Part shown: positions 1,816 to 15,026 of the stretch, piece by piece
How positions within the stretch are numbered: position 1 is the first letter of the stretch
Layout: each line of letters opens with the position of its first letter
From: a virus
IMG/VR virus record: IMGVR_UViG_3300037882_000518
Span: 1 to 40,158 of that record
DNA: 40,158 bases
Reading direction: 5' to 3' (one strand)
Notes under the pieces: model-generated
Told to the model about the DNA's origin: nothing
What the model saw: the letters and a program-made list of their open reading frames with translations, nothing else
The model's database searches: none
Made by a program: the position numbers and the translations under genes

Positions 1816-4197
1816 TTAAATATCCTCTAGATACTCACCTTTGGTTCCAATCATTCTTGTAACATCATCTTGGTTCACAGTTCGCTTTGACCATATCTTC
1901 TTGTAGATTCCGTCTAACTTCATTTGGTCTTTCATTAGATTATAACCTAGTTCTTTAAGAATATAGTTGCGTTGCTTATAAGTCACATGTACATCTGGAT
2001 ACTCTAGCATCAAGTCTTTGAATAAGTCTGATGCAGACACAACCATACTGTTGTAGTTATGTCCACCTCTCTTGAGCAATTCTTTAACTTCATTTAGACC
2101 TTCAATAGAATCGTCTTCTGTAGAAATCATCATGTCCTTAAACTCACTAGCAGGAGCCTGTTTAGTATTCAAGAACTCCTTAGTTATAGGATATTCTAGG
2201 AAGTACTTACGAATCTCGTCAGAGTATTGAGCCGTCATGTCGAAAAGCTTAGGGAAGTAGTCTCTATGTGGCATTCCTACAATAGCATCTATCTCATTTA
2301 ATGACTCTAATTCGCAGAAGATCACCATGAAACGGCGGTCATCTTTTTGTAAAGGAATTGCATCCCTACGGTTCGTAAAGGATAAGTAGTTAGTAGTGTT
2401 ATACGTCGTATACGCCCTAATGTTCTTTTCATTTACTTGTATTGTGCGGTCTGTAATAAGGGGCTTAACAGCATTCAAACACTCATACCTGTTGTGTCCT
2501 TTGACATGCAATTCCTCAAGTATGTTCAGACATACACCTGTCGCCCAACCATTGAACGATGATGTAACCTGCGTAGGTGATACAGTACCGACATTCTTGT
2601 CACCTAAGCACTGGCGCATGACTTCACCAATATAAGATTTGCCCATACCTTGGATTGACTGAACAAGAATAGACCAACCTATTTGCTTACCAGGAAATTG
2701 CACATTGTGTGCCAACCATTGGATAAATATATGTGCTATTTCATCACTACCGCATATCATACGGATATGATTCTCCATCATAGTAATAGTCTCTAAACCT
2801 TTTTCAGTATACTCCAATGCCTCAACCGGTATAGTTCTAGGGTTGAAACTATTGAGCAATAGTGTACCATCAATCTCACATATTAAATCTGAGAATGTAG
2901 GTAAGTATGCTATAGCATCTATTTTCTTAATGAAGCCATTATCACTCACATACTTAGTTGCAGATATTTTTGAGCCAGCTTGGTTACACGGCACATAAAT
3001 ACCATTCTGCAAGTTAAATGATTCAGACTTATGCATCTGGAGATTGTCTAAATCCATATAGCAGTTATGACTATTGATGTATATCCATCTCTTACACCAT
3101 TCAGGTTGTTCCATATCCTCTACAAATTGACCTGTGACAATGTCATGCTTTTGCACAAGACTTCGTATCGCAGCAACAGACATGCGCACACCGGTTATCT
3201 CTTTAAGACGACTCTGTATAGCCTTAACTAACTTTTCTCTATTAATCTTGTCGAAGTCTTCTTTACGAATAGCTGATACAATATCGAACTGGATAACTTT
3301 CTCATCAGCATACTTTATGCGTTCAATATAATTATTGACTTTGTCATGCTCTTCATAGAACATGACTTCCTTAACCATATAGTTGACAGTACCTAATGTG
3401 ATTCCGCCACCGACATTAAATCCTTTCCATTTAGATTCACAAAGACCTTCTTCATATTTATCACTTTGCTTAGACCATTCATCCCATAGCTCAAAACCCT
3501 CGATAGGATCCCAACTATGTAAGGACATACCTATATCCACCCATGTATCATGATCCACGCTCGGATCGAGCTTGTATAACATCTGCTCAACTTTCTTAAC
3601 AGACCAATTGGAGTATTTACCTCCACCGATAAGTCCTTCAAAATCACCTAAATCATTTTTAGGAGCAGAAACTTCATAAGCAAGTAATTTGATTAAAGAC
3701 TTAGGTACATCATACTCTAACATCTCTTCTAATGGATCATAGAAAGTGTATGATTCTGTACCATATTCTTTTATAATACTACCAGGAATAACACAGTATT
3801 GCCCGTATGACAGAAAGTCAATACCTGGATACTCTTTTACATTCTTCTTAAGACTAACTTCTTCATTGATATGTTTTAGCTTAAGATAGTAATGGTGACC
3901 ACCAGAAGGTGTAACAACACAGGGTTCAAAGGCGAACTCTTTGTCAAATCTGTGTATGTAGTAGAGTAGCTTTTCTAAACTAGCCTCACCGCCTTTTTTA
4001 GGATCAATATCAACTACTAAGTAATTAGCATCTATTGCCCATGCAAGGTTGCCTTTATGATTATAAATAGAATCTTTACTAAACTTCTTTGTTACCCAAT
4101 CCGTGGCCTCTTTCACAGGTTTTTTACTATTTTTCCTTAAAGGGAATAGTTTCTTATTACCTTGAGTATATAACTCAATGATATGTCTATTTATCAT
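1816..4197 (-). CDS. bifunctional primase-polymerase / SF3 (D5-like) helicase
   Basis: A 793-residue fusion that primes and unwinds DNA at the replication fork. The N-terminal archaeo-eukaryotic-type prim-pol domain (about 10-175) shows the metal motif VDIDP (D63, D65), the SGGHHYY motif (98-104) and GID with D127. A PriCT-like linker covers about 195-265 (WVDIGMSLHSW). The C-terminal D5/DUF5906-type SF3 helicase has Walker A SIQGMGKS (514-521), Walker B ILEEL (559-563), sensor FTNRRD (607-612) and arginine finger DDRR (619-622). It is the only large replication gene on the minus strand, read from the promoter at 4440-4468 behind the small regulator. Its stop abuts the convergent gene. Confidence 0.93.
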   Translation of the reverse strand: MINRHIIELYTQGNKKLFPLRKNSKKPVKEATDWVTKKFSKDSIYNHKGNLAWAIDANYLVVDIDPKKGGEASLEKLLYYIHRFDKEFAFEPCVVTPSGGHHYYLKLKHINEEVSLKKNVKEYPGIDFLSYGQYCVIPGSIIKEYGTESYTFYDPLEEMLEYDVPKSLIKLLAYEVSAPKNDLGDFEGLIGGGKYSNWSVKKVEQMLYKLDPSVDHDTWVDIGMSLHSWDPIEGFELWDEWSKQSDKYEEGLCESKWKGFNVGGGITLGTVNYMVKEVMFYEEHDKVNNYIERIKYADEKVIQFDIVSAIRKEDFDKINREKLVKAIQSRLKEITGVRMSVAAIRSLVQKHDIVTGQFVEDMEQPEWCKRWIYINSHNCYMDLDNLQMHKSESFNLQNGIYVPCNQAGSKISATKYVSDNGFIKKIDAIAYLPTFSDLICEIDGTLLLNSFNPRTIPVEALEYTEKGLETITMMENHIRMICGSDEIAHIFIQWLAHNVQFPGKQIGWSILVQSIQGMGKSYIGEVMRQCLGDKNVGTVSPTQVTSSFNGWATGVCLNILEELHVKGHNRYECLNAVKPLITDRTIQVNEKNIRAYTTYNTTNYLSFTNRRDAIPLQKDDRRFMVIFCELESLNEIDAIVGMPHRDYFPKLFDMTAQYSDEIRKYFLEYPITKEFLNTKQAPASEFKDMMISTEDDSIEGLNEVKELLKRGGHNYNSMVVSASDLFKDLMLEYPDVHVTYKQRNYILKELGYNLMKDQMKLDGIYKKIWSKRTVNQDDVTRMIGTKGEYLEDI

Positions 4198-5313: not shown

Positions 5314-6051
5314 ATGAAGTTTGTCAATCCTGAAGTTTTCATGATAGCTAGTACTCAAATAAATGATTTAGAATTACAGTCATTCTTAAATCGTTTAGGT
5401 GTACCTGGATGGAATACTAATGCTGCATCAGATGCAGAGAAGTTAATGGAAGTAGCAGGAAAGACTTGCTACATGAGTTTTCATCCAGACTTAAACAGGA
5501 ATCTAACCAGGGTTCGACATAAGCAGAATAAAGAATATATTCAGGATGGTCTGATTAAGGTAGGTCATGAGAGCGTATTGGAACATGCATCAGTAACCTT
5601 CGCTATTCATGGAGTAAGCCGTATCTTTACACACGAATTAGTACGTCATAGAGCAGGCTGTGCATATAGTCAACAGTCAGGTCGTTATGTACGTGTTGAT
5701 GAGATTGAAGCATATCGTCCTGAATGCTTAACGGACGAGGAAAATGTGCTATTGGCAGATTCATTAAAAGCTATTGAAATACTTTATAATAATCTTGAGT
5801 CTAAAGTATTTGAAAGAGTAGGAGATGATTTTAATACTAAGAAACAAGTTACATCAGCCATACGTCGTATCCTACCTAATGGTCAGGTCAATACAATCAT
5901 CTTTACAGCTAACCATAGAGCATTGCGCCATATTCTTAAAATGCGTTTATCTATACATGCTGAAGAAGAGATTAGATATGTGTTCAAACTGATTTTAACA
6001 CAATTGCAGATAAACTTTCCATCAATTTATGAAGATATTGAGGCAGAATAA
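5314..6051 (+). CDS. thyX: flavin-dependent thymidylate synthase ThyX
   Basis: Makes dTMP from dUMP using FAD, methylene-tetrahydrofolate and NADPH. The 245-residue length fits the family. The signature starts RHR (111-113) and continues AGCAYSQQSGRY (S119, S122, R124), the one-residue-longer spacing seen in some ThyX proteins. GHESVLEH (84-91) and the C-terminal NHRALRHILKMR region are also typical. AGGAG at 5303 supports the start. The stop overlaps the next start (TAATG). The phage also has a thymidylate-synthase-fold protein at 10902, so ThyX probably supplies dTMP while the other enzyme makes a modified nucleotide; that division of labour is inferred. Confidence 0.93.
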   Translation: MKFVNPEVFMIASTQINDLELQSFLNRLGVPGWNTNAASDAEKLMEVAGKTCYMSFHPDLNRNLTRVRHKQNKEYIQDGLIKVGHESVLEHASVTFAIHGVSRIFTHELVRHRAGCAYSQQSGRYVRVDEIEAYRPECLTDEENVLLADSLKAIEILYNNLESKVFERVGDDFNTKKQVTSAIRRILPNGQVNTIIFTANHRALRHILKMRLSIHAEEEIRYVFKLILTQLQINFPSIYEDIEAE

Positions 6052-7394: not shown

Positions 7395-7595
7395 AATCTT
7401 ACTACTTCAATGTAGTTGGGAGTGACGAAATAAAGGTGCTTATTGTGTTTTTGGTTGGGTACTTTTACACAAAAGAATAAGTTAAAAGGTGAGACAGAAT
7501 GAATCTTCCATTAAGCATCACCTGCCTTTATCATCTATGTGTGGCGACATAGGTCTGATGAGTTTGCCAATATAATCATAGAAGGATAAAATAAA
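7395..7595 (+). promoter_or_regulatory. structured leader with a 17-codon upstream ORF
   Basis: The leader contains a possible ribosome site AGGTGA (7487-7492) six bases before ATG 7499, which opens a 17-codon frame ending TAG 7550-7552 (MNLPLSITCLYHLCVAT). TCACCT (7518-7523), inside that frame, is the exact complement of the ribosome site. A second perfect hairpin, CTATGT/ACATAG (7535-7540 and 7547-7552), overlaps the stop codon. The SSB ribosome site AAGGA follows at 7582. This could be a translational control element for SSB; no known riboswitch was recognised. Confidence 0.45.
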
Positions 7596-8120
7596 ATGGC
7601 TACAGAATCTAAAAAAGTTGTACTAAAAAATGTTCGCTTGTCTTTTCCATCATTGTTTGAGAAATCAGTCTTTGAAGGTAAAGAAGGAAAATACGAAGCA
7701 ACTTTCCTAATCCCTAAAAGTGATAAGAACACTTACGCAGCATTATCACAAGCTATCGAAGAAGCTATTAAAGAATCTAAACTTAAAGTAGCATCTGATA
7801 AACGTTGCTTAAAAGACGGTGATGATTCAGAGTATGATGGCTATCCTGGACATTGGGCGTTCAAAGCTGCTAATTCTAAACGTCCAACAGTAATTGACAG
7901 GGATAAAACTCCAATTACAGAAAAAGACGAAAAGATTTATGCAGGTTGCTATGTCAATGCTATTGTTGACATTTGGATCCAGAACAACCAATATGGCAAG
8001 CGTGCAAATGCTAATCTTTATGGAGTTCAGTTTGTAGCAGACGGTGAGCCGTTCGGCATGGGACCAATTGACGTTACTGATGACTTTGAAGACCTTGGTG
8101 ATGATACAGAAGAGTTGTAA
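7596..8120 (+). CDS. DUF2815 single-stranded DNA-binding protein
   Basis: A 174-residue protein of the DUF2815 family, OB-fold-like phage SSBs comparable to T7 gp2.5. Recognised from the N-terminal pattern KVVLKNVRLSFPSLFE, then KYEATFLIPK and the FKAANSKRPTVIDRD region. The C-terminus ends in an acidic tail (DDFEDLGDDTEEL), the usual docking site of phage SSBs for polymerase and helicase. It has its own strong promoter, fitting the high amounts needed. A hairpin at 8134-8160 separates it from the polymerase gene. Confidence 0.88.
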   Translation: MATESKKVVLKNVRLSFPSLFEKSVFEGKEGKYEATFLIPKSDKNTYAALSQAIEEAIKESKLKVASDKRCLKDGDDSEYDGYPGHWAFKAANSKRPTVIDRDKTPITEKDEKIYAGCYVNAIVDIWIQNNQYGKRANANLYGVQFVADGEPFGMGPIDVTDDFEDLGDDTEEL

Positions 8121-8133
8121 AAGATAACTCAAA

Positions 8134-8166
8134 AGGTGGGTAGCGTATAGTTACCCACCTAATTTT
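8134..8166 (+). terminator. intrinsic terminator/attenuator after the SSB gene
   Basis: AGGTGGGTA (8134-8142) pairs perfectly with TACCCACCT (8152-8160) around a 9-base loop and is followed by AATTTTCTCT. The weak T-run suggests partial termination, which would give high SSB and lower DNA polymerase from one promoter. Confidence 0.65.
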
Positions 8167-8184
8167 CTCTGATGTAGGTTTTCA

Positions 8185-9978
8185 ATGGATAATTTTGTCG
8201 TATTAGATTGTGAAGTCTATCCGAATTACTTTCTTATATGCTTTAAAAACTTGACAACTGGAAAAGTGTTAAGTTTCAGCATAAAAGGAGAACATAATAA
8301 GTTTGATGATGAAACTATTCGTCGTATTCGTATTGTCCTAAGAGACAGGTTTACATTCGGTTTTAATAGTGTGAACTATGATATGCCTATTATCATGTAT
8401 GCGTTGTCTGGTAAAACTTCAGAACAAATCTTTAATTTATCTGAAGAAATCATTTCTAATAATATGTATGGTTGGCAAACTCTACAGAAATATGGTATAA
8501 AAATCCCACAATATATCAAACATCTTGATATTCAAGAGCCTTCTCCAGGTGTAAAAGTTAGCCTAAAGCTTTATGGTGGTCGTATGCATTCTAAAAGATT
8601 GCAAGACTTACCATTTGAAGTAGGTACATTACTTACCCAAGAGCAAATGGAAGAAGTTGAGACATATTGTATCAACGACCTGGATACAACTATCGACCTT
8701 TTTAATACAATCAAAGAACGTATCCAGCTACGTTTAGATATGTCTGAAAAGTATGGTCCAAAAGTCTTGTCTAAATCTGATGCACAGATTGCTGAGATAG
8801 TAATTAAGCAAGAGTTAGGTGAGATTAATGAAATTCTAGGACAGTCCAGAGCGCCTCAGATTAGCAAAGGAATAAAATATAGTTATAACATACCTGATTA
8901 TATTTCCTTTAACTCACCACAAATCCTGCATGCTCTGGACATAATCAGGTACCATAAGTTCGGACTTGACGACAAAGGTTCTATCAAGTTACCAAAAGAA
9001 ATAAAAGACTTAAAAATTAAACTAGGCAAATCAGTCTATCAATTAGGTATTGGTGGCATACATTCTAATGAAAAGAAACAGCGTGTAGAAGCTGATAAAA
9101 ACCATTTATTGATAGACAGAGATGTAGAGGCATATTATCCAAGAATTATTCTTAATCTTGGTTTATATCCGAAGCACCTAGGACCTTCTTTCCTTAAAGT
9201 TTATAAGAATATTGTGGACACTCGCGTTAAAGCTAAGAAGGAAGGCAACAAAGTATTAAATGAATCATTGAAAATTGTTATCAATGGTTCATTTGGTAAA
9301 TTAGGTAGCAAATGGTCAGCACTATATGCACCCGATTTAATGATCCAAGTGACATTAACAGGACAACTTGCCTTGCTAATGCTCATTGAGTCTATAGAAG
9401 AAATAGGATGTAGTGTTGTCTCTGCAAATACAGACGGATTTGTTACCAAGATTCCTAAACATTTGTACGAGCAATATGATACTGTATGTTTCGATTGGGA
9501 ACTAAAAACCGGTTTTACATTAGAATCTACATCCTATAAAGCGTTATATTCCAGGGATGTGAATAACTATCTAGCAATAACAGATAAGGGAACTAAAGGA
9601 AAAGGCATATTTACACTAAACGAACTAAGTAAGAATCCTGCTGCAAATATCTCCATGGTTGCAGTTATCGACTATCTAGAAAAAGGCATATCAATTACAG
9701 ATACAATTCAAAATTGTAAAGATATCCGCCAATTTCTAGCTGTTCGTTCTGTAACAGGTGGAGCTGTATGGCGAGGTCAATACCTTGGCCGTGTTGTTAG
9801 ATGGATATACTCCAAAAAAGGTGAGGCAATACTTTATAAAAAGAACGGTAATAAAGTTGCTAGGTCTGATGGGGCAATACCTATCATGGAGTTGTGTGAT
9901 ATACCAGATGACTTGAATTATGATTGGTATATCACTGAAGCTATGGATATTTTACAAGATATAGGATTAACAATTTAA
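8185..9978 (+). CDS. family B DNA polymerase, compact phage type
   Basis: Replicative polymerase with proofreading exonuclease, 597 residues, short for family B. Exonuclease motifs: LDCEVYPN (D8, E10), FGFNSVNYD (N61, D66), YCINDLDTT (Y161, D165). Polymerase motif A is DVEAYYP (D313), motif B KIVINGSFG (K363 to G371) and motif C SANTDGF (N415, T416, D417). In motif C the usual first Asp of DTD is Asn; the second Asp, which binds metal in RB69 polymerase, is kept. I see no protein-priming TPR insertions. It works with the primase-helicase at 1816 and the SSB upstream. The ribosome site (TAGG) is weak. Confidence 0.9.
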   Translation: MDNFVVLDCEVYPNYFLICFKNLTTGKVLSFSIKGEHNKFDDETIRRIRIVLRDRFTFGFNSVNYDMPIIMYALSGKTSEQIFNLSEEIISNNMYGWQTLQKYGIKIPQYIKHLDIQEPSPGVKVSLKLYGGRMHSKRLQDLPFEVGTLLTQEQMEEVETYCINDLDTTIDLFNTIKERIQLRLDMSEKYGPKVLSKSDAQIAEIVIKQELGEINEILGQSRAPQISKGIKYSYNIPDYISFNSPQILHALDIIRYHKFGLDDKGSIKLPKEIKDLKIKLGKSVYQLGIGGIHSNEKKQRVEADKNHLLIDRDVEAYYPRIILNLGLYPKHLGPSFLKVYKNIVDTRVKAKKEGNKVLNESLKIVINGSFGKLGSKWSALYAPDLMIQVTLTGQLALLMLIESIEEIGCSVVSANTDGFVTKIPKHLYEQYDTVCFDWELKTGFTLESTSYKALYSRDVNNYLAITDKGTKGKGIFTLNELSKNPAANISMVAVIDYLEKGISITDTIQNCKDIRQFLAVRSVTGGAVWRGQYLGRVVRWIYSKKGEAILYKKNGNKVARSDGAIPIMELCDIPDDLNYDWYITEAMDILQDIGLTI

Positions 9979-9989
9979 GGAGAACTACA

Positions 9990-10400
9990 ATGAATGCTAT
10001 GTTAGAACTAGTTAAGAAAATGCATAACAAGTTTAGTATTAATGCAGAAAAGGTTACTTTTACCAGTGTAGAAAAAGAATTTCGTTTGAAATGTCTACAG
10101 GAAGAAATCGATGAGTACAAAGATGCTACATCTGCTCATGAACAACTGGACGCACTCGTAGACCTTGTTGTGTTTGCTTTTGGTACAGCAGAACGGCAAG
10201 GCTGGTTAGATGTATTTGAAGAAGCATTCAATCGTGTTATGGATGCAAACTTAACCAAAGAAGTGGGTCCTAATCTGAAACGTGATTCATTTGCTTTAGA
10301 CCTTGTAAAACCGAAAGGATGGGTTGCTGCAGATTTAACAGACCTGGTTAAAGAATCAGGTCAAAATACTTTTGATTTAGTAGGTAATAATCATGACTAA
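9990..10400 (+). CDS. MazG-like all-alpha nucleotide pyrophosphohydrolase
   Basis: A 136-residue protein of the MazG/HisE-like all-alpha NTP pyrophosphatase fold. The metal-binding pattern is visible as LQEEIDEY followed by EQLDALVDLVVFAFGTA (ExxE, then ExxD). Such enzymes hydrolyse (d)NTPs to NMP and pyrophosphate. Beside a thymidylate-synthase-fold protein and a dCMP deaminase, the likely job is to remove a canonical dNTP or feed dNMP into modified-nucleotide synthesis; that is inference. AAGGAG supports the start. It opens a run of genes that overlap or nearly touch as far as 15294. Confidence 0.78.
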   Translation: MNAMLELVKKMHNKFSINAEKVTFTSVEKEFRLKCLQEEIDEYKDATSAHEQLDALVDLVVFAFGTAERQGWLDVFEEAFNRVMDANLTKEVGPNLKRDSFALDLVKPKGWVAADLTDLVKESGQNTFDLVGNNHD

Positions 10401-10680
10401 TATAGAAAAAGTTTTAGAAGAGCGTGGATCCAGGTACGGTAAGTTTGAGGACAATGCTCGTATTACTCAACAGCTCATGGAAGTATTGGCTTCTGGACCT
10501 AACTTTCATTTATTTGAGGATATGCATAAAGAGATTTACCATATGATTTGCCATAAAATGGCAAGGGCAGTATGTGGTGACCCTAATTATGATGATAATC
10601 CTAGAGACATAGCTGGGTATGCAACTGGCCTTACTCAATACCTGGAGAATAAAAATCATGTGCACCAGATTCAAATATAG
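10393..10680 (+). CDS. DUF6378-like phage protein
   Basis: A 95-residue protein with the family pattern LEERGSRYGKFEDNARI near the N-terminus and HKMARAVCGDPNYDDNPRDIAGYA in the second half, typical of small DUF6378 proteins found in phage nucleotide-metabolism clusters. The function is unknown; the helical fold and conserved His/Asp recall MazG-like or HD-like small enzymes, but no catalytic claim can be made. It overlaps the stop of the MazG-like gene by 8 bases. Its C-terminal codons contain the ribosome site of the next gene. Confidence 0.72.
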   Translation: MTNIEKVLEERGSRYGKFEDNARITQQLMEVLASGPNFHLFEDMHKEIYHMICHKMARAVCGDPNYDDNPRDIAGYATGLTQYLENKNHVHQIQI

Positions 10681-10903
10681 ATTAAATGAAGGTGAAATAC
10701 AAGAAATAGAATTAAAAACGCCAATATACATTAAGGCAGCCGCCATTATTGCTTTACAAAGCGATAAAGAATTACCCATTTTAATAGAAATATGGGTTGA
10801 TAGTCTTTTGCCAACTTACGGACCTTATTTCTATTATATATTTTATAATGAATATAGCAATATAACTATTAATCACGTGACCAAATACTTGGAGAATAAA
10901 AAT
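10643..10903 (+). repeat. duplicated ribosome-site segment (14 bases, two copies)
   Basis: TGGAGAATAAAAAT occurs at 10643-10656 and again at 10890-10903, each just before or at a start codon and each encoding LENKN at the C-terminus of the gene before. The flanks also match partly (CAATACC and CAAATACT). It looks like a local duplication that carried a translation start signal along with the small gene between the copies. Confidence 0.6.
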
Positions 10904-10915
10904 GCTAAAAGTTAA
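10658..10915 (+). CDS. hypothetical protein, 85 aa
   Basis: ATG 10658 is preceded by TGGAG in the coding end of the DUF6378 gene and is preferred over an earlier ATG at 10619 that lacks a ribosome site. The protein (MCTRFKYRLNEGEIQEIEL ...) alternates beta-like strands with an aromatic block (YGPYFYYIFYNEY). No family is recognised. It lies between two copies of a 14-base repeat and may have been inserted by duplication. Overlaps the genes on both sides. Confidence 0.6.
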   Translation: MCTRFKYRLNEGEIQEIELKTPIYIKAAAIIALQSDKELPILIEIWVDSLLPTYGPYFYYIFYNEYSNITINHVTKYLENKNAKS

Positions 10916-11561
10916 TGACATTAGAAATATATTTATAGACAAGTTTGCTAATGCAGATATTTGTGAAAATCAAACTGTTGAAATTATGAACGCATCATTT
11001 TTAGCAGATGAAGAAACTATATTTGGCAAATTGAGTCAAGAATATATTCAAAAAGAGTTTGATTGGTATTTATCTGAGAGCTTAAATGTCAATGATATAG
11101 CGCCACCTATTCCGCAAATATGGTTAGATATTGCTGCACCAGATGGTAGCATTAATTCTAATTATGGTTGGTGTGTATTCTCAGAACAAAATCATGATCA
11201 GTATTGTGCTGCTATAACATCATTGAAAAATGATAAATATACAAGACAAGCTTGCATGATTTATATCCGTCCTACTATGCATATAGATTCTGTTAAAGAT
11301 GGTATGAAAGACTTCATGTGCACATATTCTGCACAACTTTTAATACGCCAAAATAAATTGTATTATTTAGTGTACATGCGTTCAAATGATGCTATATTTG
11401 GATATAAGAACGACAGATATTGGCACAATTTAGTCTTCGATATATGTGTAAAAGAATTACAAAATAGTTATCCTGAATTAGAAAGAGGTGATTTACTTTG
11501 GAATGCCGCGTCTTTACATGTATACCCAAGGCATTTTAAGTTTTTAGAGAAATCAAAATGA
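10902..11561 (+). CDS. thymidylate-synthase-fold pyrimidine hydroxymethylase-like protein
   Basis: A 219-residue protein aligning by eye to the ThyA core: DGSINSNYGW, SLKNDKYTRQA, then MCTYSAQLLIR with the nucleophile C140, YMRSND (R160, S161, D163), and SLHVY (H206, Y208) for the sugar hydroxyl. The position of E. coli Asn177 appears to be Asp171 (FGYKND), the change that makes T4 gp42 a dCMP hydroxymethylase. The C-terminal 50 residues of ThyA are absent. Prediction: adds hydroxymethyl to dCMP or dUMP. With ThyX already encoded, plain dTMP synthesis is unlikely to be its role. It leads the putative hypermodification genes and overlaps both neighbours. Confidence 0.75.
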   Translation: MLKVNDIRNIFIDKFANADICENQTVEIMNASFLADEETIFGKLSQEYIQKEFDWYLSESLNVNDIAPPIPQIWLDIAAPDGSINSNYGWCVFSEQNHDQYCAAITSLKNDKYTRQACMIYIRPTMHIDSVKDGMKDFMCTYSAQLLIRQNKLYYLVYMRSNDAIFGYKNDRYWHNLVFDICVKELQNSYPELERGDLLWNAASLHVYPRHFKFLEKSK

Positions 11562-12553
11562 AATCGATTATAACGAATCCGTTCACACCAATACCAAAAT
11601 CAATGAAATCTCATGTTAGAGGTTGGTCATTAATATGGGCACAAAGACTTGATGCAGACATATCAGAAAAGCATTCAGATATGTCTGATTATGATAAAGT
11701 GTATATAGACCATGGTGTTAACTTCTCAGGTTCGTTAAATCTATTTGGTGGCTTAACTGATGATGTGATAGATAGAATAAATAATGTTGAGGATGCTTGG
11801 TATAGGAATACTACATCAATAATATTTTTAGATATAGGTTCTTTAGAATGCAATTATGAAGAACAAATGCTTAAAAGAATAGGTCAAAATACAAGTTCTT
11901 CTAGATTAACTAAAGATTACATATCTCGTATAGAACAAATGTTTGACAATGCTAAAACATTAACTATGCATAATATACAATTACCTAAAGCTATAATTGG
12001 TGATAGCCATTGTGCAGCATTTTCTATACCTGAACAAAAAGTGTTACGTCAAAATGGTAAGACTTTATGGTCAGTTTTATCAAATGAAAGATTAAAGACT
12101 TATATTGAAAGGTCAATGAGAGGTAAACTATATAATGTAAACGAAATAGATATTTGTTTAGGTTCTGTGGATATTCGCCACCATGCTATTCGTTGCCATT
12201 TAGATGCTAAAACATTTGCACAGATATATGCAGAACAAATTAAAGAAGCACAAGACTATTTTGAAACAGCAATCAATCCTTGTGCTCCTGTACCAATTGA
12301 ATATGAAGAACGAAAAATCCCAAAAACAGGACAATACGATGGAAAAAACTTTTCAGGTACTAGACAGCAAAGACTGGATTTTACAAAACATTTTATTGAT
12401 ACACTTGACAGTTATTGTTGCGACTTTGACGTTATCATACCTCCTGAACACTGGTATACCATGGACGGAAGGGATTATGCTGAACAAATAATGGAGCTAA
12501 GTAGTTCTGTTCATATAGCACCTTTACATTATAGGTCAATATCAAAATGGTAA
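11558..12553 (+). CDS. SGNH/GDSL-hydrolase-like protein of the modification module
   Basis: 331 residues. A central Ile-Gly-Asp-Ser-His motif (GDSH, 148-151) sits after a strand-like segment, as in SGNH hydrolases, followed by LGSVDIRHH (201-209) in the place of the GxND block and SSVHIAP (317-322) as a possible catalytic-His block. The first 145 residues (with YIDHGVNFSGSLNLFGG at 49-65) match nothing I know. If catalytic, S150 and H319 would act in ester or acyl transfer or hydrolysis. ATGA start-stop overlap with the hydroxymethylase-like gene and a 7-base overlap with the PLP-like gene suggest one pathway. The exact reaction is unknown. Confidence 0.5.
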   Translation: MKSIITNPFTPIPKSMKSHVRGWSLIWAQRLDADISEKHSDMSDYDKVYIDHGVNFSGSLNLFGGLTDDVIDRINNVEDAWYRNTTSIIFLDIGSLECNYEEQMLKRIGQNTSSSRLTKDYISRIEQMFDNAKTLTMHNIQLPKAIIGDSHCAAFSIPEQKVLRQNGKTLWSVLSNERLKTYIERSMRGKLYNVNEIDICLGSVDIRHHAIRCHLDAKTFAQIYAEQIKEAQDYFETAINPCAPVPIEYEERKIPKTGQYDGKNFSGTRQQRLDFTKHFIDTLDSYCCDFDVIIPPEHWYTMDGRDYAEQIMELSSSVHIAPLHYRSISKW

Positions 12554-13479
12554 GTATATATCACGTTCCTGTATCTGATATTAATAAAGACATTCCTAAA
12601 AATATGTCTTTAGGTAGAGCAAAAGAAATGTATTTGGATGAATATGGTTCATTCAAATCTTTATTGCCTTTCCCTGCATTCTACAGATGCAAGGATAGAC
12701 CTAGTGTGTTTATTTTAGACTTTGCTAAAGGACCATGTGGACTAAAAGCATATGGGGCAGAAAAATTAATAGCTAATTTAGAACATGATACAGTTGCTTA
12801 TGCTGCGCCAAGAGTTGGGCACGCCCCTGAAGCTATTGCTTATTTGTGTGAAAAGTACAATAAAAGAGGTGTGTTCTTTGCTGCAGCATCTCAAGAGATA
12901 ACCCCACACCAAGCAGTTGTCTTGGGCTATAAAGGTTGTGAATTACGTTTTGTTCGTATACCTGCAATGCCTACTATGAATTGTTGGATTAAAAGATGGG
13001 CAGCAGAATATGGAGCAATAGCTTTACCTTTCGGCCTATCTGGTGTTAAAGAGGTAACTGCAGCTTTAGTGGCTATGTGTGAAGAGCACATTATCCTTAA
13101 CGGTGAGCCACCTGAGTTTTATTGCGCTGTAAGCACAGGTACAATGATTAGAGCTTTGCAGATAGGTTGGCCTAATGCTTTAGCTTATGGTGTTGCTGTT
13201 GCTAGAAATATGAAAGCAGGTGAAATAGGTGAGGCTAGAGTTCATTCTTATCATAAAAGCTTTTATAAAAAAGCAGATAAGATGCCTTACTTTGAGACAA
13301 CCGGGTCATATGATGCTAAAGCTTATGACCACTTCTTAAATAATGCTAGGCCCGGTTCTGTCTTTATTAATGTTGGAAGTGATAAACAGATAGAAAAACG
13401 TTTAGAATTTGTACCAGGTTGGCAAAATATAAACGCTAAAAGAGAATGGGGCGATATGGAGGCCTTTAGTTATGCTTAA
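12547..13479 (+). CDS. fold-type-II PLP-dependent enzyme-like protein
   Basis: 310 residues with the plan of cysteine synthase/ACC deaminase-like enzymes: GPCGLKAYGAEKLI with K67 as candidate PLP lysine, a segment like the substrate loop (YAAPRVGHAPEAIAYL, 85-100), alternating strand-helix units, and AVSTGTMIRALQIGWP (194-209) as the glycine-rich phosphate-binding loop. The C-terminal part (GEARVHSY, SYDAKAYDHF, PGSVFINVGS) looks conserved but is unfamiliar. In thymidine hypermodification pathways, PLP enzymes decarboxylate amino acids attached to the base. A similar role here is inferred from the neighbours. Overlaps both neighbours by 7-8 bases. Confidence 0.55.
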   Translation: MVSIYHVPVSDINKDIPKNMSLGRAKEMYLDEYGSFKSLLPFPAFYRCKDRPSVFILDFAKGPCGLKAYGAEKLIANLEHDTVAYAAPRVGHAPEAIAYLCEKYNKRGVFFAAASQEITPHQAVVLGYKGCELRFVRIPAMPTMNCWIKRWAAEYGAIALPFGLSGVKEVTAALVAMCEEHIILNGEPPEFYCAVSTGTMIRALQIGWPNALAYGVAVARNMKAGEIGEARVHSYHKSFYKKADKMPYFETTGSYDAKAYDHFLNNARPGSVFINVGSDKQIEKRLEFVPGWQNINAKREWGDMEAFSYA

Positions 13480-14599
13480 TACAACAAAATACTATGATGA
13501 GTTTTTACGCTATTTCGAAATGGCTAAATGGCAACATGAAAATTGCAATTTAGGAACTATTCCATATGACCAAACCCCATACGATGATGACCTGATAAAG
13601 AATGTTTTCTTATATGATGTGGTCGCCCGTAAGTACGCAGGTTTTAGTCAGATTTTATTGGATATGTGGTATAATACCGATAACCACCCATATAGTCACA
13701 AATTAACCCAGGCGCGTCTAAACATAGTTCAATCATTCGATACAGACCTATGGAGTTTAGAGGAATGGTTATATGTCTTTTTTATTCACAGACTTACCGG
13801 CTCAGGTATTAATTACGCCCTATCACCTTCCGGTTATCACAACTCCATATTGCTAAAATTCGATCAATGTGATAATATAGATGATATGATTGTTGCATAT
13901 AAAATATATGAAGGACCTAAGTTCACAAGTTACGGTTACCAAATAGCTCCTTTTCCTAAACCTAAAGATGGATATGCTAAAGGTGGAGATTGGTTTATAT
14001 GTGAAGTTTTACCTGATTTAGTGAAACGTTTTTGTGATTGGTTTTTGTTTGGAGGTAATCATAAAAAGACTTTTAGGGAAATGATGGATTGGCTAAAAGC
14101 TTACAATCAAGAAAAAGGTTTTAGAGTATTCTATTTCCAGTATGCAGCAGTTTTAGCTGATATTGCAGACTTTTTTCCTCAATGTGTGATAACAGAGTCA
14201 CACTTCTTTTATGGCAAAAACGCTATGGAGTGTTTGAACTATATGGCTGAAAGGCCACGTAGTCAAAAGCCTTTAGATTTTTATGATGCATTAACAGATA
14301 AAATCTTAAAAGATACAGATGCTGTCCCATATAATTCTGAGGACGTAGCTTGTGATTGTATTCGTTGGATTGAAAACTACATCAACACTAAGCAAGACTA
14401 TTCACATTTAGATTTAGATAGTGTATGGTCAAGTCATCAGATTGAAGACCACCCATTCGGTAGACAAAAACCAATGTTAGAATTAGGTTTAGTTGATAGC
14501 TTTAATGGTAAAGGCCATCCTTCTGATGATAAGATTATTAAAGAAGCAGGATTAACAGTTCAGGAGTATAAAAATGCAGTGTATGCAGAGAGAATCTAA
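13472..14599 (+). CDS. aGPT-pyrophosphorylase-like (thymine hypermodification) protein
   Basis: 375 residues, predicted largely helical. The layout recalls alpha-glutamyl/putrescinyl-thymine pyrophosphorylases and the helical domain of 5-hmdU DNA kinases: an N-terminal segment PYDDDLIKNVFLYDVVARKY, a middle FFIHRLTGSGINYALSPSGY, and a C-terminal glycosylase-like region FRVFYFQYAAVLADIADFF followed by FFYGKNAMECL. Those enzymes replace a pyrophosphate on 5-hydroxymethyl-dU in DNA with an amine or amino acid. The match is from memory of the family pattern and is remote. The partner 5-hmdU kinase is not in this window and may lie before position 1. Confidence 0.45.
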   Translation: MLNTTKYYDEFLRYFEMAKWQHENCNLGTIPYDQTPYDDDLIKNVFLYDVVARKYAGFSQILLDMWYNTDNHPYSHKLTQARLNIVQSFDTDLWSLEEWLYVFFIHRLTGSGINYALSPSGYHNSILLKFDQCDNIDDMIVAYKIYEGPKFTSYGYQIAPFPKPKDGYAKGGDWFICEVLPDLVKRFCDWFLFGGNHKKTFREMMDWLKAYNQEKGFRVFYFQYAAVLADIADFFPQCVITESHFFYGKNAMECLNYMAERPRSQKPLDFYDALTDKILKDTDAVPYNSEDVACDCIRWIENYINTKQDYSHLDLDSVWSSHQIEDHPFGRQKPMLELGLVDSFNGKGHPSDDKIIKEAGLTVQEYKNAVYAERI

Positions 14600-15026
14600 A
14601 GAACAGTATTTCCTAAAAATAGCCAGACTAGTTGCAACAAGAGCAACTTGTCCTAGAAGAGCTGTTGGTTGCGTGGTTACAAATGAATATGGCCATATAT
14701 TAGCAACAGGTTACAACGGTGTTCCAAGAGGATATGACCATTGTAATGAGCAAAATCCATGTGGTGGTCAGAACGCATCATCCGGTGAAAGTCTGAATTG
14801 TTGTATGGCTACACATGCTGAACAGAATGCATTGCTTCAGTGTTCGAATACGATGCTTATTCACACAATTTATATCACCACATCTCCTTGTGATACTTGT
14901 TGTAAACTTATTGCTAACACGTCTTGTAAAAAAGTTGTGTTTCATGATTTATATCCACATTCAACAGGTCTGGATATGTTGAAATATTTAGGAATAGAGG
15001 TGGTGCATGAGAGAATCGTTGATTGA
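14574..15026 (+). CDS. deoxycytidylate deaminase (ComEB-like)
   Basis: 150 residues, zinc-dependent deaminase converting dCMP to dUMP. The zinc and catalytic residues are visible as HAEQNAL (H81, E83) and SPCDTCC (C106, C109). The N-terminal ARLVATRATCPRRAVGCVV and GYNGVPRG blocks are characteristic of dCMP deaminases. An extra cysteine cluster in the middle (C57, C63, C76, C77) may bind a second zinc, as in T4 dCMP deaminase. It feeds dUMP to ThyX and, if the hydroxymethylase-like protein uses dUMP, to that enzyme too. AGGAG at 14559 supports ATG 14574; overlaps the previous gene by 26 bases. Confidence 0.92.
   Translation: MQCMQRESKEQYFLKIARLVATRATCPRRAVGCVVTNEYGHILATGYNGVPRGYDHCNEQNPCGGQNASSGESLNCCMATHAEQNALLQCSNTMLIHTIYITTSPCDTCCKLIANTSCKKVVFHDLYPHSTGLDMLKYLGIEVVHERIVD

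Follow-up and report, generated by a model that had tools for sequence, protein, structure and literature searches.

The stretch analysed here is an entire IMG/VR virus record (IMGVR_UViG_3300037882_000518; 40,158 bases, referred to below as the window), and its positions 9,990 to 15,026 hold a gene cassette by which the phage probably replaces cytosine in its DNA with a hypermodified cytosine. The modification very probably starts from 5-hydroxymethyl-dC and not from 5-hydroxymethyl-deoxyuridine (5-hmdU), and the genes that follow encode an SGNH-fold protein (P0005), a fold-II pyridoxal-phosphate (PLP) enzyme (P0006) and a protein that we call F7 (P0007). A sequence-only reading had claimed a run of overlapping or nearly abutting genes in this region; all eight open reading frames (ORFs) are present at the positions given. 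They are listed below with one gene outside the cassette, a putative ThyX-like thymidylate synthase whose type is judged from PHROG 85 and from its size.

9990..10400, plus strand: P0001, MazG/PRA-PH-like all-alpha nucleoside triphosphate pyrophosphatase (PF01503, 8.7e-5; phrog_671, 4.4e-20), a candidate dCTP pool cleaner
10393..10680, plus strand: P0002, DUF6378 protein (PF19905, 1.1e-5)
10619..10915, plus strand: P0003, ORF of 98 aa, not named in the sequence-only reading
10902..11561, plus strand: P0004, thymidylate synthase (TS)-fold protein, putative T4 gp42-type deoxycytidine monophosphate (dCMP) hydroxymethylase (Thymidylat_synt, 1.3e-13)
11558..12553, plus strand: P0005, SGNH-fold protein (structure prediction)
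12547..13479, plus strand: P0006, fold-II PLP enzyme (PHROG 7093, 'threonine dehydratase', 1.8e-41)
13472..14599, plus strand: P0007 (F7), predicted protein of the aGPT-Pplase/HMUDK-helical superfamily (structure prediction)
14574..15026, plus strand: P0008, dCMP deaminase (PF00383, 2.3e-21; phrog_174, 2.3e-43)
5314..6051, plus strand: ThyX-like thymidylate synthase, outside the cassette (phrog_85, 2.8e-47)

The core genes overlap briefly (11558/11561, 12547/12553, 13472/13479 and 14574/14599), and the same genes recur together in other phages. Searches recovered F7 homologs from 47 viral contigs and from nine loci in metagenome bins, where the genes for the TS-fold protein, the dCMP deaminase, the SGNH protein, the PLP enzyme and F7 are grouped in varying order, with quite different surrounding genes. 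Among the 26 full-flank loci, defined by at least 4 kb on each side and including redundant loci, many of them near-identical, the SGNH and F7 genes were present in all 26, the PLP gene in 24, and the TS and dCMP deaminase genes in 21 each. When F7 proteins of more than 90% identity were merged, 20 lineages of uncultured phages retained all five genes, and this recurrence is far beyond chance. The pairwise distances of the five proteins were correlated over the 20 lineages (Mantel p ≤ 0.0175 for each pair), as expected of a module whose genes move together but equally of simple shared descent. The most constant pair is SGNH–F7, which is retained where the PLP gene is missing. As the sequence-only reading had proposed, the run looks like a cassette for DNA-base hypermodification.

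The nearest relatives of P0004 are the dCMP hydroxymethylases of Aeromonas T4-like phages (47–49% identity, 48% for gp42 of Aeromonas phage 25), while the identity to the TS-fold protein of Pseudomonas phage M6 is 19%. In P0004, C140 corresponds to T4 C148, the nucleophilic cysteine of the TS fold, and D171 corresponds to T4 D179, which selects dCMP over dUMP (PMC6400193). D137, three residues before the cysteine in a KDFMC motif, corresponds to T4 D145, a residue special to the hydroxymethylase, and S86 and Y88 in an NSNYG motif correspond to T4 Ser94 and Tyr96, whose roles have also been described (PMC6400193); the columns of D137, S86 and Y88 are invariant. The D179 position is occupied by Asp in 42 of the 43 TS-fold proteins of the module records, including a very divergent copy (L133) and a fragment (L040). 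The sole Asn belongs to a plain thymidylate synthase encoded on the opposite strand of contig L132, whose end truncates the module. In contrast, the TS-fold proteins of the M6-type thymidine loci have Asn at this position (27 loci). Thymidine as the modified base is disfavoured by the Asp of the module-linked proteins, and P0004 is not needed as a source of dTMP, because the window has the separate ThyX. Taken as a sequence-based assignment, P0004 is well supported as a gp42-type dCMP hydroxymethylase making 5-hydroxymethyl-dCMP. The start from 5-hmdU, which the sequence-only reading had taken as its model, does not agree with the D179 position.

More recent work describes the RB69 homolog of gp42 as a 5-hydroxy-dCMP synthase (PMC13390438); this activity was rejected for P0004, which shares 21.5% identity with the RB69 protein versus 44% with T4 gp42. 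TS, PRA-PH and dCMP-deaminase domains co-occur on phage contigs of environmental origin that were selected for modified cytosine (PMC8670742).

P0006 resembles a known hypermodification enzyme. When its profile was compared with that of M6 gp52, using relatives from independent sets, hhalign gave a probability of 97% and an E-value of 5e-11, and the catalytic lysine, K67, is invariant, M6 included. By sequence, P0006 is homologous to gp52, which serves as PLP enzyme in thymidine hypermodification and is encoded in the 5-NedU cluster beside the ADDT and radical S-adenosylmethionine (SAM) genes. Lee et al. reportedly gave the gp52-type PLP enzyme a decarboxylase role, and P0006 may likewise trim or decarboxylate an adduct. 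Fold-II PLP domains homologous to P0006 also occur in other settings: Erythrobacter phage R6L gp1 (L003) joins such a domain to an N6/N4 DNA methylase, and that of Microcystis phage Mae-JY30 (L004, 9929–10639) lies beside two ParB/sulfiredoxin genes.

P0005 and P0007 had zero Pfam matches and fell into no named PHROG family, and their assignment relies on structure prediction. The AlphaFold2 model of P0005 (predicted local distance difference test score, pLDDT, 89) matched several SGNH/GDSL esterases and acyltransferases in Foldseek with a probability of 1.00. The residues G148-D149-S150-H151, G202, D205, R207, H209, E248, R252 and H319 are invariant in the family; block I is thus GDSH, block III reads G[SN][IV]D where GxND is typical, and block V, typically DxxH, keeps its His (H319) in all members but lacks the Asp. 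As judged from the model, P0005 has an SGNH esterase/acyltransferase fold, as the sequence-only reading had suggested for the protein at 11558.

For F7, the AlphaFold2 model (pLDDT 83) was searched with Foldseek against BFVD, and the top named matches all belonged to the aGPT-Pplase/ADDT/HMUDK-helical superfamily (probability 0.97–1.00). They comprised two ADDT-annotated proteins (E 7e-29 and 2e-3), the SP10 5-hmdU kinase (probability 1.00, E 0.09), the RSL1 and phiW-14 helical-domain proteins (probability 0.98 and 0.97; E 0.10–0.14) and an aGPT-Pplase clade-1 protein (probability 0.97, E 0.28). In the alignment of F7 with HMUDK_hel, the motifs GxNA/GPGA and EDxxCD/ExxxCE are in register. The model thus leads us to claim that F7 belongs to this superfamily, the evidence from sequence being weak, and it is a candidate DNA transferase or base-presenting partner. 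The proteins at 13472 and 12547 do not fall into families unrelated to aGPT or PLP enzymes; the former falls into the superfamily that the sequence-only reading had named, and the latter is the gp52 homolog.

F7 is not claimed as an ADDT proper, for which the fold search against the PDB, phmmer and Pfam gave no support. Some loci carry a further protein, X, which is an F7 paralog (hhalign E 1e-4). Microbacterium phages, Golden (L140; 1951–2823 and 4944–5750) among them, have an HMUDK_hel homolog near a TS-fold gene; 25 records match the helical protein and 196 match P0004.

The sequence-only reading had noted no recognisable 5-hmdU kinase in the window and had placed the kinase possibly before position 1. 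A P-loop 5-hmdU DNA kinase was found neither in the window nor in 26 further module records, whereas the same search was positive in M6. Four of these 27 records are of 53–147 kb and most are fragments, so that the absence is only suggestive, and a kinase hidden before position 1 is improbable. The phage 44RR2.8t protein ORF233c (L002, 8001–10388; 795 aa) consists of an N-terminal P0005-like SGNH domain and a second, C-terminal domain, which matches HMUDK_hel weakly (E 0.0036, and 4e-4 in a second search); by BLASTP, the protein has no significant similarity to P0007. An SP10-like phage has the P-loop kinase and the helical domain in one fusion protein (domains read by eye). Because the 44RR fusion parallels this kinase–helical fusion, we propose that the SGNH protein occupies the place of the kinase, and its replacement of the kinase step is also suggested by the fact that the SGNH gene accompanies F7 wherever the flanks allow. 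That the SGNH protein stands in for the kinase is a real possibility, although we lean slightly against it.

On this basis, the following pathway may be proposed. P0004 would make 5-hydroxymethyl-dCMP, while the MazG and DUF6378 proteins, the dCMP deaminase and ThyX would manage the dCTP and dTTP pools, by the precedent of T4; P0008 would convert dCMP to dUMP and feed the supply of dTMP. The resulting 5-hydroxymethyl-dCTP would then be polymerised into DNA. There, the proposed target of P0005 is the 5-hydroxymethyl group of 5-hydroxymethylcytosine (5hmC), on which it would work as a pair with P0007 and in the position that the P-loop 5-hmdU DNA kinase holds in M6 and SP10. The likeliest chemistry would be an acyl transfer, which either forms the adduct or installs a leaving group for F7 to replace by an amino acid; P0006 would trim the amino-acid adduct, for example by decarboxylation. 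The purpose would be to evade restriction and other DNA-targeting defences. The steps beyond 5hmC synthesis, namely incorporation, action on DNA, acyl chemistry, an amino-acid donor and PLP trimming, are those that we infer. The full kinase-free route, in which the SGNH enzyme acylates 5hmC in DNA, the aGPT-superfamily enzyme swaps the ester for an amino acid and the gp52-type PLP enzyme decarboxylates it to an aminoalkyl cytosine, is a tentative proposal that is more likely wrong than right.

Several observations weigh against this reading of the cassette. The PLP gene is missing from two full-flank loci (L056 and L058), and the PLP enzyme is therefore not obligatory in the module; likewise, a gp42-type TS gene was not found in contigs L031, L128 and L054, and no dNMP kinase for 5-hydroxymethyl-dCMP was identified in the window. 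The TM-scores of P0005 to solved SGNH enzymes are low (0.3–0.4 by query length). For F7, the hhalign comparison with a diverse HMUDK_hel set gave a modest E-value of 0.022 over 164 columns, against 0.09–0.79 over short stretches for decoys; it is comparable to that of HMUDK_hel with the ADDT profile (E 0.026), and earlier profile comparisons with less diverse references were not significant (E 0.14–0.22). The superfamily Pfam models PF18723 and PF18724 matched none of 20 F7 family members and had no above-cut-off match in the 27 module records. The fold search of the F7 model against the PDB did not recover the solved ADDT structures 25qc, 8z2m and 8z2n, and phmmer against the PDB, Pfam and PHROGs gave nothing useful for the F7 sequence, nor did tblastn match cultured phages. 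Because of the missing Pfam match, the modest profile E-value and the unmatched ADDT structures, the label 'transferase' for F7 is less secure than membership of the same superfamily. Finally, the donor may be something other than an amino acid, because relatives of the SGNH protein lie near symporter, sugar or inositol genes in 44RR, Aeromonas phage 25 and a further contig (L137).

These relatives extend the family to cultured phages. P0005 shares 31% identity with the SGNH domain of 44RR ORF233c and 26% with that of Aeromonas phage 25 ORF225c. The 44RR gene adjoins a sodium:solute symporter gene. Phages 44RR and 25 both have gp42, and no T4-type alpha- or beta-glucosyltransferase was found in either of them, in the window or in the long module contigs tested; no PLP or F7 homolog was found elsewhere in 44RR or Aeromonas phage 25. 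In phage 25 (L009, 3776–7047), the SGNH gene lies directly downstream of two others, one for a UDP-galactopyranose mutase and one for an unnamed protein of 358 aa that may be a glycosyltransferase. In the 81-kb contig L137 (1517–6251), SGNH and the 44RR-type C-terminal domain are encoded by two genes, between which inositol-1-phosphate-synthase-like, small HAD-like and methyltransferase-like genes were read by eye.

Among the alternatives, the one that survives best has the SGNH protein act late, unmasking the final group as an esterase or deacylase, with F7 using a host-activated donor directly. Most relatives of the SGNH fold are indeed esterases, but the SGNH–F7 pair is constant even where PLP is missing, and in 44RR the SGNH domain is fused to the helical-like domain, where a kinase would be expected. 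We regard this explanation as unlikely. In another, the SGNH, PLP and F7 proteins would work before polymerisation on 5-hydroxymethyl-dCMP or 5-hydroxymethyl-dCTP, and the finished nucleotide would be incorporated. A phage 5hmC carbamoyltransferase that uses 5hmdCTP as well as DNA offers a precedent (PMC8670742), whereas the hypermodification of 5-hmdU in M6, ViI and phiW-14 is described as post-replicative, on DNA (PMC6449724); overall, action at the nucleotide level appears distinctly unlikely.

The arrangement in the Aeromonas T4-like phages could also represent the general rule: 5hmC would receive a sugar or polyol from the SGNH and helical domains, and the sole task of the PLP enzyme would be to make the donor. 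The symporter next to the 44RR fusion, the mutase of phage 25 and the inositol-1-phosphate synthase-like gene of L137 would all suit such a scheme. However, the module of the window is without such genes, and P0006 is homologous to an enzyme of the M6 cluster, which makes an amino-acid-derived base, so that we consider a sugar or polyol scheme decidedly improbable as the rule. The weakest alternative, thymidine hypermodification as in M6 and ViI with the base derived from 5-hmdU (for example, by the dCMP deaminase turning 5-hydroxymethyl-dCMP into 5-hydroxymethyl-dUMP), would accommodate the gp52 homology of P0006, the superfamily of F7 and the place of the deaminase in the module, but it is made very improbable by the Asp/Asn difference between module and M6-type loci, by a dTMP supply accounted for by ThyX and the dCMP deaminase, as in T4, and by the lack of a 5-hmdU kinase in all 27 module records.

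The cassette, in the preferred reading for a hypermodified cytosine built on 5hmC, can be compared with several known systems. Like the module, the M6 5-NedU cluster (gp51–gp58) has a homologous fold-II PLP enzyme, an aGPT/HMUDK-superfamily protein and a TS-fold hydroxymethylase, and M6 has a dCMP deaminase elsewhere in its genome. However, M6 has the P-loop 5-hmdU kinase, HMUDK_hel, ADDT, the radical SAM enzyme and an Asn-type TS protein, whereas the module has an Asp-type dCMP hydroxymethylase and the SGNH protein, and no 5-hmdU kinase was found in it. The T4 5hmC pathway shares the same type of dCMP hydroxymethylase with its specificity residues, the dCMP deaminase and a separate thymidylate synthase, but has alpha- and beta-glucosyltransferases where the module has SGNH, PLP and F7. 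Biquartavirus 44RR ORF233c and Tulanevirus 25 ORF225c (PHROG 17781/13881) share the homologous SGNH domain, which in 44RR differs from the module in its fusion to the weakly matching HMUDK_hel-like domain. Phage S-B43 likewise places an amino acid on cytosine C5, its CmoA, CmoX and CmoY converting 5-carboxymethylcytosine to a glycine amide (PMC12783734), but by carboxy-SAM methyltransfer and an ATP amide ligase, with enzymes unrelated to those of the module. In the 5hmC carbamoyltransferase systems found by MetaGPA, TS-family, PRA-PH and dCMP deaminase domains accompany another enzyme that modifies 5hmC (PMC8670742), the carbamoyltransferase standing where the module has SGNH, PLP and F7. At the level of sequence comparison, the gene combination of the module appears to match none of these systems, although the gene context may have been mentioned earlier in papers on the families.

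The window has a G+C content of 36%, and no terminal repeats of at least 12 bases, which would mark the contig as complete, were found in the 40,158-base record. Its left arm contains replication genes (helicase, primase, the ThyX-like thymidylate synthase, exonuclease, gp2.5-like single-stranded DNA-binding protein and DNA polymerase), and its right arm, on the opposite strand, contains structural genes (terminase, portal, major head protein and tape measure). Within the cassette, P0003 matched no known family in Pfam or PHROGs and is absent from the gene maps of the relatives, whereas a DUF6378 gene lies close to the TS gene in several of these maps. When the main ORFs were scanned against PHROGs, no radical SAM protein or flavin lyase surfaced, no family search being aimed at either. 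Three relatives carry further genes of note, each identified by eye. In L058, one of the loci where no PLP gene was found, a 409-aa C5-cytosine methyltransferase-like protein (7452–8681) follows F7 and SGNH; in L056, an NCS1 nucleobase family-like permease (2531–3922) separates the TS-fold gene from that of the dCMP deaminase; and in L028, a dNMP-kinase-like P-loop protein with a C-terminal extension (9884–10753), a candidate 5-hydroxymethyl-dCMP kinase, adjoins the dCMP hydroxymethylase.

To our knowledge, thymidine is the only base for which phages are known to employ aGPT-type and PLP enzymes in hypermodification, and there the route passes through a DNA kinase. If the present reading is true, the cassette would bring related chemistry to a second base, cytosine, and the unnamed PHROG families 13881 and 17781 would gain functions. 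A further modification of cytosine would then be predicted in the long-cultured Aeromonas T4-like phages 44RR2.8t, 31 and 25. The kinase-free cytosine route, if true, would mean that both the DNA base and the way in which DNA is activated are new, and the resulting base and its enzymes could serve in DNA labelling and as substrates for the study of defence.

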